Source: Morinoia aosen (taxonomy: Eukaryota; Arthropoda; Malacostraca; Amphipoda; Talitridae). Taken from it: DNA of 64,000 nucleotides. This document shows positions 2,408 through 33,450 of the stretch, in pieces. The stretch covers positions 29,875,422-29,939,421 of the forward strand of contig CM059570.1 in the NCBI GenBank assembly GCA_030386875.1, in the 5' to 3' direction. Under the pieces are notes generated by a model. That model was not told the DNA's origin. It saw nothing but the letters and a program-made list of their open reading frames with translations, and searched no databases. A program made the translations under genes and the position numbers. The stretch's first letter is position 1. The number at the start of each line of letters is the position of its first letter.

Positions 2408-3535
2408 TTTTTATAAGACACTTTGTACTCCGCCTGTTATCGCAATGAGCTGTAATGAACCAGGCACTGTGCATCAAATTCTGCATCACACGTGATGCAA
2501 GCTATATATGTAAAAAAAAATTTACGTGGTACTATTTTTGCCTAATGAATCAGTTGTGGAAATTTTTCTCTTAAAAATACGCATTTCTCTACATGTCCAA
2601 ACTACAGTGAAACTGGTTATTAAATCACTGAAATCCCTAGAATATATGAACCTATATTCAAAGATAACAGAAATACCAATTACTAAGCTTGGATATTGAT
2701 GGAAAATAGCAATTAGCAGAGATAGGTTATTTTTTGGGAGTGAAATTTCCTTTTACATGTGGAAAATGTTAGCTCCGCAAAAAAATCAGTGCATAGGGAG
2801 TTTTCTCGCCTGGGTTTCTCCTTCATAAAAAATAAAAATAAAAATTATTCCTTTTTCATCATGATGAAGAATAAATAGGCGAGGAAATTCCCTTGACACG
2901 TGCTTTTTATAGGCAGAGCAAAAGAGGAACTTTTGATGAGGGAAGCTCGGCAAATTTTGCAGTCACTTTAAAAGACTAATTATAACATGGTACTCATTAT
3001 AATATCGGAAGCTAATATTGCCATGCTAGAAAACCCTTCTCTGTATGAAAATTTAAAAAAGTGGTTGCAAAAATTTTGTCCATGGGATTCGAAAAGACAC
3101 AAGCAAGCGCATAAATTTTGAAAAAGTTTCACACAAAATTTAATTTTCAACTATTTTAGTGGCCAAACAAATTTTCACAAGTTAAATGACCCCTTGTTTG
3201 AGTTATTATTCAATTTACGTAAAGTGCACTATCAAAACTGAACAGTTTGCATGATGCGTCTTAGCACGGGATTAACGCTCAATTCTTTTTGTTCTCAGCT
3301 CTTTTATTCACGTCTTGGTGTTAAGAAAAATATGGGCGAGGTAATTAATCGATGATCCTACCATTGAAGCAAGCTTTTTTTGAAAAAGCCATGCATCCTA
3401 CAGTCTCCCCTCTCATGTTAAAGGATACCACGGTACTTGTAAGTGTAAACTTCCGTGATTCAAGTGAGAAGACCATGGTACTGAATGGGTTAACTCTCGG
3501 GCCATAACATCGACGAGCTCTTCACGTTAATTACG
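2408..3535. other. AT-rich non-coding DNA
   Basis: No exon, RNA gene or repeat could be supported here. Presumed intron of the dpr gene. Confidence 0.4.
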
Positions 3536-3539
3536 ATGT

Positions 3540-5183
3540 TCTTTGCTGTTACCAGGTGATTATAGACCTTTTTCTGCTGTTGTCATGTGATTACAGAACT
3601 TTTTTCAACTGTTGTCATGTGATTACAGGACTTTTTCTACTGTTGTGTGATTACAGGACTGTTTCCTACTGTTATGTGATTACAGGACTGTTTCCTACTG
3701 TTATGTGATTACAGGACTTTTTCTACTGTTGTCATGTGATCACAGGACTTTTTCTACTGTTGTCATGTGATCACAGGACTTTTTCTACTGTTGTCGTGTG
3801 ATTACAGGACTGTTTTCTACTGTTTTCATGTGATTACAGGATTTTTTAACCGTTGTCGTGTGATTACAGGGCTGTTTTCTCCTATGAATATAAAATTACA
3901 GGGATGTTTTCTACCGTGATCATAAAATTACGGGGCTGTTTTCTACTGTGATTGTAAATTTACAGGGCTGTTTTCTACTGTGATTGTAAATTTACAGGGC
4001 TGTTTTCTCCTGTTACCACGTGACTGCAGGAATGTTTTCTGATGTTATCACTGGCTTGCAGGACTGTTTTTTTACAGTGACTAGTTAAGAACAGGACTGA
4101 TCTATAGGTTGGTATTTTTATAACTTGACTTTTTATCGTATGATTTGATTTTAAAACTGTTCTCCAGAAGGATTTTTTAATTACAAAACTGAGCTCCTGA
4201 ATAATTTTTTTAACTACGAAACTATTATCTGGAATAATATTATCATTCCAAAATAGTTATCCAGGATATTTTCTTATCACTAAAGCTATTCTCTAGAATT
4301 ATTTTTTGATTATTAGATAGTGTTATTTTGAATAAAAAATTGTTTCCACCATGATCTTTCGATTGCAGGATTGTTTATAGTTGTTTCCTTTGATTGAAGG
4401 ACTGTTTTCTGTTGCCATTCTTCAGTTGCAAGACTATTTTCTACTGTGATGACTCGACTGCCGGACAACTTGTATTGTGATGATTCGACTGCCGGACAAT
4501 TTGTATTATGATGACTCGACTGCTGGACAATTTCTACTGTGATGACTCGACTGCAGGACAATTTTCTATTGTGTTGCGACTGCCAGACAATTTCTATTGT
4601 GATGACTCGACTGCCGGACAATTTCTATTGTGATGACTCGACTGCCGGACTATTTTCTACTATGATGACTCGACTGCAGGACAATTTTCTATTGTGATGA
4701 CTCGACTGCAGGACAATTTTCTATTGTGATGACTCGACTGCCGGACAATTTCTATTGTGATGACTCGACTGCCGGACTATTTTCTACTGTGATGACTCGA
4801 CTGCAGGACAATTCTCTATTGTGATGAATCGACTGCCGGACTATTTTCTACTATGATGACTCGACTGCCGGACAATTTTCTACTGTGATGACTCGACTGC
4901 AGGACAATTTTCTATTGTGATGACTCGACTGCCGGACAATTTCTACTGTGATGACTCGACTGCCGGACAATTTCTGTTGTGATGACTCGACTGCCGGACT
5001 GTTTTCTACTGTGATGACTCGACTGCAGGAGAGCTATCGCAATCCTTCGATTTTTAAAACGTCCTCTATTGCTTTCATTGCAATGGCAAAGTACTGAATT
5101 ACTTCTTGAATTACGTACAGAACTGTTCTCCACAGTGATATATAAATCCAGGACGGTTCTCTACCATGATCCTTGGCTTACAG
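3540..5183 (+). repeat. ~30-32-bp array leading into the dpr exon acceptor
   Basis: There are more than 40 imperfect copies. The left part uses TGTGATTACAGGACTGTTTT; the right part uses TGATGACTCGACTGCCGGAC plus AATTTCTATTG. The last unit, CTTACAGGACTGTTCTCAAC at 5177-5196, is the sequence immediately in front of the first visible dpr exon. Most units carry an acceptor-like (T)RCAGGAC or CTGCAGGAC core, so the array looks like repeated copies of the acceptor region. Confidence 0.8.
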
Positions 5184-5204
5184 GACTGTTCTCAACGGTG
5201 ATAG

Positions 5205-5356
5205 TGGGCAAGGAGCAGCGGTACCTGCAGGCGGGCTCTCTGCTGTCGCTAGACTGCGTCGTGCGCCACACTAAGCACGCGCCGCCCGCTGTACTCTGGT
5301 ACAGGAACGGCCTTCCCCTCGACTACGACTCCCCTAGGGGAGGTATCGCTATCCAG
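5205..5356 (+). CDS. dpr: Dpr-family Ig protein, exon carrying the first half of Ig domain 2
   Basis: Dpr proteins (defective proboscis extension response) are two-Ig cell-surface proteins that bind DIP partners and help specify neuronal wiring. The exon reads ..VGKEQRYLQAGSLLSLDC, then a VLWYRNG segment with the invariant Ig tryptophan, then DYDSPRGGIAIQ. The Cys, the Trp and the (Y)DSxRGG motif are typical of Dpr Ig2. It ends CAG|GTGGGG in phase 0 and joins the exon at 18568 in frame. The acceptor is uncertain: ATAG|TG at 5205 is preferred, but TTACAG|GA at 5184 is also open. Both splice sites lie in or against minisatellites. Which dpr paralogue this is cannot be told. Confidence 0.85.
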
Positions 5357-7612
5357 GTGGGGAGGCATTGCTATCCAGGTGGGGAGGCATTGCTATCCAG
5401 GTGGGGAGGCATCGCTATCCAGCTGGGGAGGCATCGCTATCCAGGTGGGGAGGCATCGCTATCCAGGTGGGGAGGCATCGCTATCCAGGTGGGGAGGCAT
5501 CGCTAACCAGGTGGGGAGGCATCGCTATCCAGGTGGGGAGGCATCGCTATCCAGGTGGGGAGGCATCGGTATCCAGGTGGGGAGGCATCGCTATCCAGGT
5601 GGGGAGGCATCGCTATCCAGGTGGGGAGGCATCGCTATCCAGGTGGGGAGGCATCGCTATCCAGGTGGGGAGGCATCGCTATCCAGGTGGGGAGGCATCG
5701 CTATCCAGGTGGGGAGGCATCGGTATCCAGGTGGGGAGGCATCGGTATCCAGGTGGGGAGGCATCGCTATCCAGGTGGGGAGGCATCGGTATCCAGGTGG
5801 GGAGGCATCGGTATCCAGGTGGGGAGGCATCGCTATCCAGGTGGGGAGGCATTGCTATCCAGGTGGGGAGGCATCGCTATCCAGGTGGGGAGGCATTGCT
5901 ATCCAGGTGGGGAGGCATCGGTATCCAGGTGGGGAGGCATCGGCATCCAGGTGGGGAGGCATTGCTATCCAGGTGGGGAGGCATTGCTATCCAGGTGGGG
6001 AGGCATCGCTATCCAGGTGGGGAGGCATCGGTATCCAGGTGGGGAGGCATCGCTATCCAGGTGGGGAGGCATTGCTATCCAGGTGGGGAGGCATTGCTAT
6101 CCAGGTGGGGAGGCATTGCTATCCAGGTGGGGAGGCATTGCTATCCAGGTGGGGAGGCATCGCTATCCAGGTGGGGAGGCATCGGTATCCAGGTGGGGAG
6201 GCATCGCTATCCAGGTGGGGAGGCATTGCTATCCAGGTGGGGAGGCATTGCTATCCAGGTGGGGAGGCATCGCTATCCAGGTGGGGAGGCATTGCTATCC
6301 AGGTGGGGAGGCATCGCTATCCAGGTGGGGAGGCATCGGTATCCAGGTGGGGAGGCATCGCTATCCAGGTGGGGAGGCATCGGTATCCAGGTGGGGAGGC
6401 ATCGCTATCCAGGTGGGGAGGCATCGGTATCCAGGTGGGGAGGCATCGCTATCCAGGTGGGGAGGCATCGGTATCCAGGTGGGGAGGCATAGCTATCCAG
6501 GTGGGGAGGCATCGGTATCCAGGTGGGGAGGCATCGGTATCCAGGTGGGGAGGCATCGGTCTCCAGGTGGGGAGGCATCGGTATCCAGGTGGGGAGGCAT
6601 CGCTATCCAGGTGGGGAGGCATCGCTATCCAGGTGGGGAGGCATCGCTATCCAGGTGGGGAGGCATCGCTATCCAGGTGGGGAGGCATTGCTATCCAGGT
6701 GGGGAGGCATTGCTATCCAGGTAGGGAGGCATTGCTATCCAGGTGGGGAGGCATTGCTATCCAGGTGGGGAGGCATCGCTATCCAGGTGGGGAGGCATCG
6801 CTATCCAGGTGGGAAGGCATCGCTATCCAGGTGGGAAGGCATCGGTATCCAGGTGGGGAGGCATCGCTATCCAGGTGGGGAGGCATCGCTACCCAGGTGG
6901 GGAGGCATCGCTATCCAGGTGGGGAGGCATCGCTATCCAGGTGGGGAGGCATTGCTATCCAGGTGGGGAGGCATTGCTATCCAGGTGGGGAGGCATTGCT
7001 ATCCAGGTGGGGAGGCATCGCTATCCAGGTGGGGAGGCATCGCTATCCAGGTGGGAAGGCATCGGTATCCAGGTGGGGAGGCATCGCTATCCAGGTGGGG
7101 AGGCATCGCTACCCAGGTGGGGAGGCATCGCTATCCAGGTGGGGAGGCATCGCTATCCAGGTGGGGAGGCATGGCTATCCAGGTGGGGAGGCATGGCTAT
7201 CCAGGTGGGGAGGCATGGCTATCCAGGTGGGGAGGCATCGCTATCCAGGTGGGGAGGCATCGCTATCCAGGTGGGAAGGCATCGCTATCCAGGTGGGAAG
7301 GCATCGGTATCCAGGTGGGGAGGCATCGCTATCCAGGTGGGGAGGCATCGCTACCCAGGTGGGGAGGCATCGCTATCCAGGTGGGGAGGCATGGCTATCC
7401 AGGTGGGGAGGCATGGCTATCCAGGTGGGGAGGCATGGCTATCCAGGTGGGGAGGCATGGCTACCCAGGTGGGGAGGCATCGCTATCCAGGTGGGGAGGC
7501 ATCGCTATCCAGGTGGGGAGGCATGGCTATCCAGGTGGGAAGGCATCGCTATCCAGGTGGGGAGGCATCGCTATCCAGGTGGGGAGGCATCGCTATCCAG
7601 GTGGGGAGGTGG
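5357..7612 (+). repeat. 22-bp minisatellite (~102 copies) built from the exon 3' end and splice donor
   Basis: The unit has core GTGGGGAGGCATCGCTATCC then AG. It starts at the exact exon/intron boundary, and each copy repeats the exon end (ATCCAG) plus the donor (GTGGGG). Variants include ATTGCT, ATCGGT, ATGGCT and GTGGGAAGG, the last two grouped mainly in the right third. Since 22 is not a multiple of 3 and few stops occur, all three plus frames are open over long stretches; the resulting 300-767-codon frames are not taken as proteins. Confidence 0.95.
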
Positions 7613-18530: not shown

Positions 18531-18567
18531 CCCCGCACATTTCCCCTGACGGTGTCCCGGTTTGCAG

Positions 18568-18697
18568 CTGGAGAAGACGGGTGCGCAGACGAGCTCACAC
18601 CTGCTGCTCTCCGCCGTGCGGGTCGCCGACTCCGGCAACTACACCTGCGCTCCTGTGGCTGCCCCGCCTGCCTCCGTCACCGTGCATGTCCACAGCG
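18568..18697 (+). CDS. dpr: Dpr-family Ig protein, exon carrying the second half of Ig domain 2
   Basis: The exon follows the acceptor CCGGTTTGCAG and opens with CTG in phase 0. It reads LEKTGAQTSSHLLLSAVRVA, then DSGNYTCAPV, then ASVTVHVHS. DSGNYTC holds the second Ig cysteine, and SVTVHV is the typical last strand of Dpr Ig2. It joins the 5356 donor without loss (RGGIAIQ-LEKTG), which fixes that donor. The exon ends AGCG|GTGGGT in phase 1. The third base is often G or C here, in contrast to the AT-rich intron around it. Confidence 0.9.
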
Positions 18698-18885
18698 GTG
18701 GGTGGTTGTTGGGGTGTGGGGCTGTGGTTGTTGGGTAGTGCGGGGCTGTGGTTGTTGGGTAGTGTGGGGCTGTGGTTGTGGCAGTGAGGTTGTTGGGTGG
18801 TGTGTGGCTGTTGGGTGGTGTGTGGTTTTTGGGTGGTGTGGTGTGGTGTGGGGGTGTGGTGTGGTTGGGGCGTTTGTGATGGGTA
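18698..18885 (+). repeat. GT-rich imperfect repeat starting at the splice donor
   Basis: From the first intron base the sequence is a G/T minisatellite with units such as GTGGTTGTTGGGTAGTG and TGTTGGGTGGTGTGTGG. These resemble the donor GTGGGTGGTTGTTGGG itself. No stop-free frame here has coding character. Confidence 0.75.
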
Positions 18886-28738: not shown

Positions 28739-31700
28739 CCACAGAGTCGGGGATACGGAGTCGGGGATACGGAGTCGGGGATACGGAGTCGGGGATACGG
28801 AGTCGGGGATACGGAGTCGGGGATACGGAGTCGGGGATACGGAGTCGGGGATACGGAGTCGGGGATACGGAGTCGGGGATACGGAGTCGGGGATACGGAG
28901 TCGGGGATACGGAGTCGGGGATACGGAGTCGGGGATACGGAGTCGGGGATACGGAGTCGGGGATACGGAGTCGGGGATACGGAGTCGGGGATACGGAGTC
29001 GGGGATGCGGAGTCGGGGATGCGGAGTCGGGGATGCGGAGTCGGGGATGCGGAGTCGGGGATGCGGAGTCGGGGATGCGGAGTCGGGGATGCGGAGTCGG
29101 GGATGCGGAGTCGGGGATGCGGAGTCGGGGATGCGGAGTCGGGGATGCGGAGTCGGGGATGCGGAGTCGGGGATGCGGAGTCGGGGATGCGGAGTCGGGG
29201 ATGCGGAGTCGGGGATGCGGAGTCGGGGATGCGGAGTCGGGGATGCGGAGTCGGGGATGCGGAGTCGGGGATGCGGAGTCGGGGATGCGGAGTCGGGGAT
29301 GCGGAGTCGGGGATGCGGAGTCGGGGATGCGGAGTCGGGGATGCGGAGTCGGGGATGCGGAGTCGGGGATGCGGAGTCGGGGATGCGGAGTCGGGGATGC
29401 GGAGTCGGGGATGCGGAGTCGGGGATGCGGAGTCGGGGATGCGGAGTCGGGGATGCGGAGTCGGGGATGCGGAGTCGGGGATGCGGAGTCGGGGATGCGG
29501 AGTCGGGGATGCGGAGTCGGGGATGCGGAGTCGGGGATGCGGAGTCGGGGATGCGGAGTCGGGGATGCGGAGTCGGGGATGCGGAGTCGGGGTTGCGGAG
29601 TCGGGGTTGCGGAGTCGGGGTTGCGGAGTCGGGGTTGCGGAGTCGGGGTTGCGGAGTCGGGGTTGCGGAGTCGGGGTTGCGGAGTCGGGGTTGCGGAGTC
29701 GGGGTTGCGGAGTCGGGGTTGCGGAGTCGGGGTTGCGGAGTCGGGGTTGCGGAGTCGGGGTTGCGGAGTCGGGGTTGCGGAGTCGGGGTTGCGGAGTCGG
29801 GGTTGCGGAGTCGGGGTTGCGGAGTCGGGGTTGCGGAGTCGGGGTTGCGGAGTCGGGGTTGCGGAGTCGGGGTTACGGAGTCGGGGTTACGGAGTCGGGG
29901 TTACGGAGTCGGGGTTACGGAGTCGGGGTTACGGAGTCGGGGTTACGGAGTCGGGGTTACGGAGTCGGGGTTACGGAGTCGGGGTTACGGAGTCGGGGTT
30001 ACGGAGTCGGGGTTACGGAGTCGGGGTTACGGAGTCGGGGTTACGGAGTCGGGGTTACGGAGTCGGGTTACGGAGTCGGGATTACGGAGTCGGGATTACG
30101 GAGTCGGGATTACGGAGTCGGGATTACGGAGTCGGGATTACGGAGTCGGGATTACGGAGTCGGGATTACGGAGTCGGGATTACGGAGTCGGGATTACGGA
30201 GTCGGGATTACGGAGTCGGGATTACGGAGTCGGGATTACGGAGTCGGGATTACGGAGTCGGGATTACGGAGTCGGGATTACGGAGTCGGGATTACGGAGT
30301 CGGGATTACGGAGTCGGGATTACGGAGTCGGGATTACGGAGTCGGGATTACGGAGTCGGGATTACGGAGTCGGGATTACGGAGTCGGGATTACGGAGTCG
30401 GGATTACGGAGTCGGGATTACGGAGTCGGGATTACGGAGTCGGGATTACGGAGTCGGGATTACGGAGTCGGGATTACGGAGTCGGGATTACGGAGTCGGG
30501 ATTACGGAGTCGGGATTACGGAGTCGGGATTACGGAGTCGGGATTACGGAGTCGGGATTACGGAGTCGGGATTACGGAGTCGGGATTACGGAGTCGGGAT
30601 TACGGAGTCGGGATTACGGAGTCGGGATTACGGAGTCGGGATTACGGAGTCGGGATTACGGAGTCGGGATTACGGAGTCGGGATTACGGAGTCGGGATTA
30701 CGGAGTCGGGATTACGGAGTCGGGATTACGGAGTCGGGATTACGGAGTCGGGATTACGGAGTCGGGATTACGGAGTCGGGATTACGGAGTCGGGATTACG
30801 GAGTCGGGATTACGGAGTCGGGATTACGGAGTCGGGATTACGGAGTCGGGATTACGGAGTCGGGATTACGGAGTCGGGATTACGGAGTCGGGATTACGGA
30901 GTCGGGATTACGGAGTCGGGATTACGGAGTCGGGATTACGGAGTCGGGATTACGGAGTCGGGATTACGGAGTCGGGATTACGGAGTCGGGATTACGGAGT
31001 CGGGATTACGGAGTCGGGATTACGGAGTCGGGATTACGGAGTCGGGATTACGGAGTCGGGATTACGGAGTCGGGATTACGGAGTCGGGATTACGGAGTCG
31101 GGATTACGGAGTCGGGATTACGGAGTCGGGATTACGGAGTCGGGATTACGGAGTCGGGATTACGGAGTCGGGATTACGGAGTCGGGATTACGGAGTAGGG
31201 ATTACGGAGTAGGGATTACGGAGTAGGGATTACGGAGTAGGGATTACGGAGTAGGGATTACGGAGTAGGGATTACGGAGTCGGGATTACGGAGTCGGGAT
31301 TACGGAGTCGGGATTACGGAGTCGGGATTACGGAGTCGGGATTACGGAGTCGGGATTACGGAGTCGGGATTACGGAGTCGGGATTACGGAGTCGGGATTA
31401 CGGAGTCGGGATTACGGAGTCGGGATTACGGAGTCGGGATTACGGAGTCGGGATTACGGAGTCGGGATTACGGAGTCGGGATTACGGAGTCGGGATTACG
31501 GAGTCGGGATTACGGAGTCGGGATTACGGAGTCGGGATTACGGAGTCGGGATTACGGAGTCGGGATTACGGAGTCGGGATTACGGAGTCGGGATTACGGA
31601 GTCGGGATTACGGAGTCGGGATTACGGAGTCGGGATTACGGAGTCGGGATTACGGAGTCGGGATTACGGAGTCGGGATTACGGAGTCGGGATTACGGAGT

Positions 31701-32627
31701 CGGGATTACGGAGTCGGGATTACGGAGTCGGGATTACGGAGTCGGGATTACGGAGTCGGGATTACGGAGTCGGGATTACGGAGTCGGGATTACGGAGTCG
31801 GGATTACGGAGTCGGGATTACGGAGTCGGGATTACGGAGTCGGGATTACGGAGTCGGGATTACGGAGTCGGGATTACGGAGTCGGGATTACGGAGTCGGG
31901 ATTACGGAGTCGGGATTACGGAGTCGGGATTACGGAGTCGGGATTACGGAGTCGGGATTACGGAGTCGGGATTACGGAGTCGGGATTACGGAGTCGGGAT
32001 TACGGAGTCGGGATTACGGAGTCGGGATTACGGAGTCGGGATTACGGAGTCGGGATTACGGAGTCGGGATTACGGAGTCGGGATTACGGAGTCGGGATTA
32101 CGGAGTCGGGATTACGGAGTCGGGATTACGGAGTCGGGATTACGGAGTCGGGATTACGGAGTCGGGATTACGGAGTCGGGATTACGGAGTCGGGATTACG
32201 GAGTCGGGATTACGGAGTCGGGATTACGGAGTCGGGATTACGGAGTCGGGATTACGGAGTCGGGATTACGGAGTCGGGATTACGGAGTCGGGATTACGGA
32301 GTCGGGATTACGGAGTCGGGATTACGGAGTCGGGATTACGGAGTCGGGATTACGGAGTCGGGATTACGGAGTCGGGATTACGGAGTCGGGATTACGGAGT
32401 CGGGATTACGGAGTCGGGATTACGGAGTCGGGATTACGGAGTCGGGATTACGGAGTCGGGATTACGGAGTCGGGATTACGGAGTCGGGATTACGGAGTCG
32501 GGATTACGGAGTCGGGATTACGGAGTCGGGATTACGGAGTCGGGATTACGGAGTCGGGATTACGGAGTCGGGATTACGGAGTCGGGATTACGGAGTCGGG
32601 ATTACGGAGTCGGGATTACGGAGTCGG
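28739..32627 (+). repeat. 14-bp minisatellite, ~278 copies, in ordered variant blocks
   Basis: The unit is GGAGTCGGGGATAC. Blocks run in order: GGGGATAC (28740-29003), GGGGATGC (29004-29583), GGGGTTGC (29585-29868), GGGGTTAC (29870-30060), then GGGATTAC (30070-32627). A run of six GGAGTAGGGATTAC units lies at 31190-31275. One 13-bp unit (one G lost) sits at the fourth/fifth block boundary. The frames of up to 836 codons come from the period not being a multiple of 3 and from the lack of stops. Confidence 0.97.
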
Positions 32628-33450
32628 GCCAATTTGGGGTATGTTAACATGCAGGAAATTTTCATGAAGCAGGGCAGATGAACAAGTTATGAGTTTATAA
32701 CCATATGTAAATTGTGAATGGTAATCGAAATATGTATGTTATGTCTATAGCGGATAAAGCCGCCGTCTTAATAAGCAATTTATTAATTAAAAGAATAAAA
32801 TGTACGAATTATGAGGTTTCACTATGTATTTCGTTAATAAACTATTTCAAAAAGTATTTATCGGAATAACATGAATACTAGAAAAAAATGGTTACTGGCG
32901 TTTTCAGTACGAACAAATGCACGTGTGAGACGCGTTCTGCAGGTTCGCCTGCGCGTTGTGTACTCCGTGAATAAGAACTCGTCTCCATTAACTAATATGC
33001 TTAACTCGACTGATAACACTGAAAAAAAATTCATCTACCGAAAGAAATTCCAATTCCAATAAATTCGTCCATATAATATATTGAGTTCACCGTTATCACG
33101 TCATGTAATTACCGAAGAGATTGTAAGTGATCTTACCTTACTAAAAAAAAAAAGCTTAAAAGAGGAATACGAGAGTAGAACTCTACAAATTACCAAGATC
33201 TGTGTTACACTCGCGCAAAACGTTGCTGACGGTCTACGGGAATTATACATAATATTTAAATGCGTCATATGATGGCGCACACGTCGATTGCATTGAAGAA
33301 ACAATTGAGCAAAAGTAGTATTTAATAGGTTGCTTTGGAAACCTGCATTGTAATTCAGAATGAAATTCTGATTGACATACATTACAGAATATTTGAGTCT
33401 TTAGTGGAATTCAAATTGAAAGTGAGAAACTCGAGCTATGTCTTTCATAT
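32628..33450. other. AT-rich DNA, nothing recognised
   Basis: Short open frames of about 60 codons occur on both strands, without motif, splice context or homology that I can name. Confidence 0.35.

Follow-up and report, generated by a model that had tools for sequence, protein, structure and literature searches.

The exon, its intron and the Dpr paralogs

The window analysed here, 64,000 nucleotides of the talitrid amphipod Morinoia aosen, contains on its + strand a Dpr-type exon (5184–5356, 173 nt), which profile and PDB matches together with paralogs identify as the first half of a second immunoglobulin domain, Ig2 (VIVGKEQRYLQAGSLLSLDCVV...DYDSPRGGIAIQ). Its probable start at 5184 is placed from the acceptor motif and the paralog exon L017, while the authentic donor GT (5357–5358, + strand, phase 0; CAG/GTGGGG, where the slash marks the junction) follows from the exon translation and the paralogs. 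The next exon, recognised by translation at 18568–18697 of the + strand behind the acceptor TTTGCAG, supplies the second half of Ig2 (LEKTGAQTSSHLLLSAVRVADSGNYTCAPVAAPPASVTVHVHS, encoding LEKTG...HVHS in phase 0). The intron between 5356 and 18568 is thus in phase 0 and 13.2 kb long.

The two exons jointly encode one Ig domain. Its best PDB match is Defective proboscis extension response 4 (6eg0, E 2.1e-15), followed by Defective proboscis extension response 2 (6eg1, E 2.4e-07), and Pfam Ig_3 scores 37.4 bits against a cut-off of 30. RGGIAIQ/LEKT, read across the junction, aligns with RGGINVITERS of 6eg0. By these PDB and Pfam matches the second Ig domain is Dpr-like, and the genome has many dpr/DIP-like exons, as expected of an arthropod. 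The first Ig domain was sought in the genome with a V-set family search, in which none of the 13 matches listed is on contig C15. The next donor (GCG/GTGGGT) and its adjoining repeats, found from sequence and TRF, cover 18698–18870 on the + strand; these are GT-rich degenerate tandem repeats that start at 18702, and their unit contains no exon sequence. The whole window has 23 arrays longer than 250 bp, the longest being 3.9 kb (28744–32628, 14-bp unit).

Four Dpr-type paralog exons stop at the same residue and in the same phase 0, and none of them has the 22-bp array that follows the exon in the window. Their tails read SPRGGISLQ (L017), SPRGGVSVQ (L020), SPRGGVNLK (L035) and SPRGGVQLQ (L039), so that the coding exon tail follows a conserved pattern among the paralogs, SPRGG-I/V-xx-Q/K. 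In L035 another, different GT-rich repeat begins at the donor. An earlier, sequence-only reading of this DNA had located the junction independently of the array, and this placement holds, both from the phase-0 start of LEKTG...HVHS in the next exon and from the shared residue and phase of the four paralog exons. Because the paralogs share the phase-0 intron position without the array, the comparison argues that the junction existed before the array did. Thus, on the evidence of the paralogs, the array is derived from the exon at an ancestral junction, and not vice versa; the presence of the same intron in four array-free paralogs also speaks against an origin in which the intron was absent before the duplication.

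Arrays at both edges of the exon

The donor-side array occupies 5337–7609 on the + strand and was found by TRF with a period of 22, 103.3 copies and 96% matches. It contains 103 full units. Unit 1 (5337–5358), GGGGAGGTATCGCTATCCAG/GT, joins the final 20 nt of the exon (last base 5356) to the donor GT, and it is followed in the intron by 102 full units up to 7602 and a 7-nt partial one. The exact consensus is present in 45 of the 103 units, and one position separates the exon's own unit (T) from all 102 copies (C). The copies are thus homogenised for a shared C with the boundary unit excluded, which is the turnover expected of a mirage, the name given to tandem repeats at exon-intron boundaries in amphioxus (see below). 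Adjacent units are also more alike than shuffled ones (0.33 vs 0.25, p 0.018), as in minisatellite turnover. Selection on the donor bases within the array was considered and set aside, as variable sites (3/9 in the donor 9-mer vs 6/13 outside, one of these six varying solely in the exon's own unit) are too few to tell. The 7-bp sequence GGGGAGG opens the exon unit and recurs at the right edge of the array, although this repeat may itself be array sequence.

The genome was searched with the exon and array as query, scoring the best candidates and skipping very common words. The array locus itself matched a single place in the assembly. Elsewhere, among the best-scored candidates, five places at 73–76% identity were found, all in a single array with a 22-bp unit on contig C14. 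At this identity we regard the C14 array as a chance or remote similarity; no exon was noticed beside it, in a spot where no protein-family search was made.

The sequence-only reading had described a true Dpr-type Ig2 junction multiplied about 100-fold, and the array units and paralog tails bear this out. Its count of about 102 near-identical donors needs a small correction: GT is intact in 101 of the 102 downstream copies, and the copy at 5423 reads CT. The donor 9-mer CAG/GTGGGG (CAGGTGGGG) is intact in 95 of the 103 array donors, so that the donor itself gives the first one no mark. The predicted U1 duplex is -11.1 kcal/mol per array unit (a perfect site gives -14.3), and a value of -7 or better is predicted for 99% of 30-nt windows within the array, against 3% of those elsewhere in the intron. 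Each unit is thus a good predicted U1 site and donor strength cannot explain a unique choice, which would have to rest on position or exon definition. We infer that the first donor, at 5356, is the one chosen.

The consequences of using another donor can be read from the frame. The earlier claim that every third donor, in 66-bp steps, is in frame is arithmetically right (22 mod 3 = 1), but the donor at +66 is the dead CT copy. The TAA that this reading had noted at about 5504 in the exon frame is there (5504–5506, + strand, read from the array sequence), and it does limit the useful donors; however, it leaves a single in-frame alternative and not the first few. Since the donor at +66 (5423) is lost, this alternative is the donor at 5489–5490 on the + strand, +132 nt from the authentic one. 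Use of the copy at +22 or +44 would change the frame, and all donors from unit 8 onward would put the TAA at 5504 into the mRNA. The same stop at 5504, met when the array is read in the exon frame, led us to reject the array as a coding repeat.

A second set of repeats, absent from the first reading and newly recognised here, lies at the acceptor of the same exon. These are degenerate 31–32 bp repeats at 3556–5183 on the + strand, located by TRF and motif scoring, whose unit resembles TTACAG/GACTGTTCTCAACGGTGAT, i.e., the acceptor and the first ~20 nt of the exon. TRF reports arrays at 3556–4070 and 4427–5030, followed by single copies at 5115 and 5146; the repeats are discontinuous, as 4071–4426 and 5031–5114 are outside the arrays. 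The two single copies run in register, at a spacing of 31–32 nt, into the true acceptor at 5178. At a score of at least 19/27 there are 11 copies plus the true acceptor in 3500–5187 and none elsewhere in the window, while at 18/27 or better this region contains 17, counting the true site, vs 17 in the rest of the window. As judged from these motifs, both splice sites of the 173-nt exon are multiplied, the acceptor side being far more diverged.

Copied junctions at other exons

The recurrence of such copies was examined in 80 loci (L012–L091), from which 45 donors (26 Ig and 19 kinase exons) and 44 acceptors (22 Ig and 22 kinase exons) were used. Splice sites were assigned from translations and a splice-site weight table rather than from transcript evidence. 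For each junction, the 24-mer across it was compared with 480 nt of the same exon's neighbouring intron, and a match of at least 18/24 was taken as a copy. The near-identical twins L023, L025, L029 and L037 were left out, as were L072 and L073, being repeats of L065 and L067, and 24 kinase loci whose matches exceeded 430 nt. Donors of L057, L059, L065, L067 and L076, and acceptors of L026, L028, L030, L041, L057 and L059, could not be placed and were also left out. The twins belong to near-identical locus pairs on the same contig, 0.9–15 Mb apart (L022/L023 on C2, L024/L025 on C6, L028/L029 on C19 and L036/L037 on C12), which suggests retained haplotypes or recent duplications.

A copy of the exon's own junction was found downstream of 9 of 45 donors (5/26 Ig, 4/19 kinase), which is not an unbiased genome rate, since the 26 Ig exons were found by similarity to the dpr exon and the remaining 19 are kinase exons. 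With the exon of the window excluded, 8 of 44 donors have one. Upstream, own-junction copies are present at 5 of 44 acceptors; the acceptor in the window scores only 18 within its 480-nt flank, a value matched by 1 of 300 shuffles. Junctions compared with the introns of other exons gave no match of 18 or more (best 17), and exon-interior 24-mers at -40, -60, +40 and +60 gave no copies at this level, although in one of these four controls a single exon of 44 beats all others with a score below 18. Among dinucleotide shuffles, 17 of 13,500 for donors and 3 of 13,200 for acceptors reach 18.

The position of the copies relative to the exon edge was also followed. Local self-copies are at 0 from -140 to -50, at 0.22 at the donor, at 0.38 at +40 and at 0.18–0.22 from +200 to +350. 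They emerge within about 40 nt of the exon edge, and the intron level is attained at the junction. Tandem-repeat coverage over the 45 donors is 29% at +20 to +120 vs 15% at +220 to +450 (Wilcoxon p 0.022), while the acceptor-side enrichment is not significant (p 0.18).

On inspection, the strong donor cases are L012, L015, L018, L026, L040 and L085, and the strong acceptor cases L022, L033, L075 and L081. Among the nine donor cases, long arrays that include the exon tail are limited to L012 and L018 (31 bp x 19). In L015 the duplication covers about 36 nt of exon and the beginning of the intron, and L026 has a 55-bp tandem pair. The best copies of L015, L040 and L091 are 261–399 nt from the junction. 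On extension the matches of L082, L083 and L091 prove weak, with GC in place of GT in the L091 copy and AT in the closest L082 copy; L078, at 17/24, is also weak and, being under the line of 18, is not among the nine. By this comparison, copied junctions recur at a minority of the other sampled exons.

Locus L011 contains a 31-bp array (4190–4489) whose unit holds a near-perfect donor, TAG/GTGAGT. The three + strand frames upstream show no recognisable exon, and it was therefore not counted as a junction array. The sampled introns (45 donors, 44 acceptors) also have, on the sense strand, more G than C and more T than A in their first ~150 nt, and more C than G in their last ~200 nt.

Origin of the arrays and relation to mirages

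Tandem repeats at exon-intron boundaries of amphioxus Adh3 and the globins BflGb6 and BflGb9 have been named mirages (PMC3087553). According to this source, their units are at donors or acceptors, many with AG/GT, and regular splicing is reportedly undisturbed; BflGb6 haplotypes have 6 and 3 units of 150–160 bp, and Adh3 units are 10–72 bp. The dpr array is similar in that its unit spans the boundary, with the real junction being one of the units, and in that the AG/GT signals are kept (GT in 101 of 102 intronic copies). It therefore fits the structural definition of a mirage, as far as sequence can decide, and the kind is known but obscure. However, amphioxus is a cephalochordate, while this case is in an arthropod, has 103 units of 22 bp, affects both edges of one exon and recurs across a sample of junctions.

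Two other systems are related. In potato RdRp, a tandem duplication crosses an intron-exon boundary (PMC4974935), as the dpr array does, but here there is no new intron and the intron position is common to the paralogs. In human segmental duplications, internal tandem repeats at exon-intron boundaries, where the dpr array also sits, can change splicing (PMC2812944); those are read as novel introns or variable amino acid repeats, while the dpr copies are within an old intron. Literature searches on boundary minisatellites and on arthropod or crustacean cases gave no arthropod junction array among the matches listed, and in a paper on crustacean repeats (PMC3152781) the terms "splice" and "exon-intron" are absent from the main text. 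To judge by these searches, four features are new: the host, the scale, copies on both sides of one exon, and their recurrence among the sampled junctions.

We suggest, and consider it highly probable, that the array is a splice-junction minisatellite, or mirage, that was born neutrally at the exon edge and is tolerated through use of the outermost junction. In an already existing intron, a segment across the junction (20 nt of exon plus GT) would have been tandemly duplicated, the first duplication probably seeded by the direct repeat GGGGAGG, and ordinary minisatellite turnover by slippage or unequal exchange would then have expanded it to 102 intronic copies. A parallel, more diverged process would have taken place at the acceptor. 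Tandem repeats make up ~43% of the window and 9% of the exon loci, in keeping with DNA in which minisatellites would be made freely; purifying selection would clear them from exon interiors. Duplications that straddle an edge would survive because the outermost junction, if chosen, still yields the correct mRNA. At the dpr exon, transcripts from all other donors but one would shift the frame or add a stop and be removed by surveillance. No function of the array is needed.

It is unlikely, in our view, that several array donors are used appreciably and produce variable or truncated Dpr isoforms. The 95 of 103 identical donor 9-mers would favour such splice noise, but a single alternative stays in frame before the stop, and a conserved gene would presumably suffer from heavy misuse. 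A functional array, in which some 100 binding sites for U1 influence the nascent transcript, for example by holding U1 snRNP over the 13-kb intron against premature polyadenylation or by pacing splicing, seems more improbable still. The predicted duplex of each unit, the 99% vs 3% of windows and the nearly invariant donor cores are in line with it; however, copying a donor automatically brings U1 pairing, array homogeneity can account for the intact donors, and four paralogs with the same intron manage without this array.

The remaining two possibilities have very little in their favour. The array could have made the intron by duplicating AG/GT, which is present in each unit, and such cases have been published (PMC4974935, PMC3087553). 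Yet an intron of identical position and phase is found in four paralogs that lack the 22-bp array, and the acceptor at 18567 stands 11 kb beyond it, so we find this origin extremely improbable. We grant equally little to an assembly artefact or a chance minisatellite beside an exon: the array is known here from the assembly and 43% of the window is already tandem repeat, but the differences between units are ordered, the array unit is the exon tail itself and the pattern is found again at other junctions.

It can be speculated, as a rather doubtful generalisation of the mirage origin, that exon edges are birthplaces of minisatellites, since junction duplications survive selection while interior ones are removed, and that the largest arrays come to offer ~100 U1 snRNP sites. 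If so, a run of ~100 such sites at the start of an intron could affect splicing or premature polyadenylation. The results suggest that the amphioxus phenomenon extends to a second phylum and affects a considerable minority of junctions there; they bear on how minisatellites are born and on how edge duplications feed alternative splicing or intron gain. The dpr array is also a natural experiment in which the spliceosome is confronted with about 100 near-identical donors and has to select one.

A separate observation from the genome concerns COX1. Copies of the mitochondrial kind, with eight in-frame TGA and readable in the invertebrate mitochondrial code, are present on three contigs: C28 has two of them at a distance of 18.4 kb, C29 (62.9 kb) has one and C26 has at least two. 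Unlike these, the many COX1 matches at 55–72 Mb of C27 contain in-frame TGA rarely or not at all, a pattern that points to bacterial sequence having been joined into a large contig.
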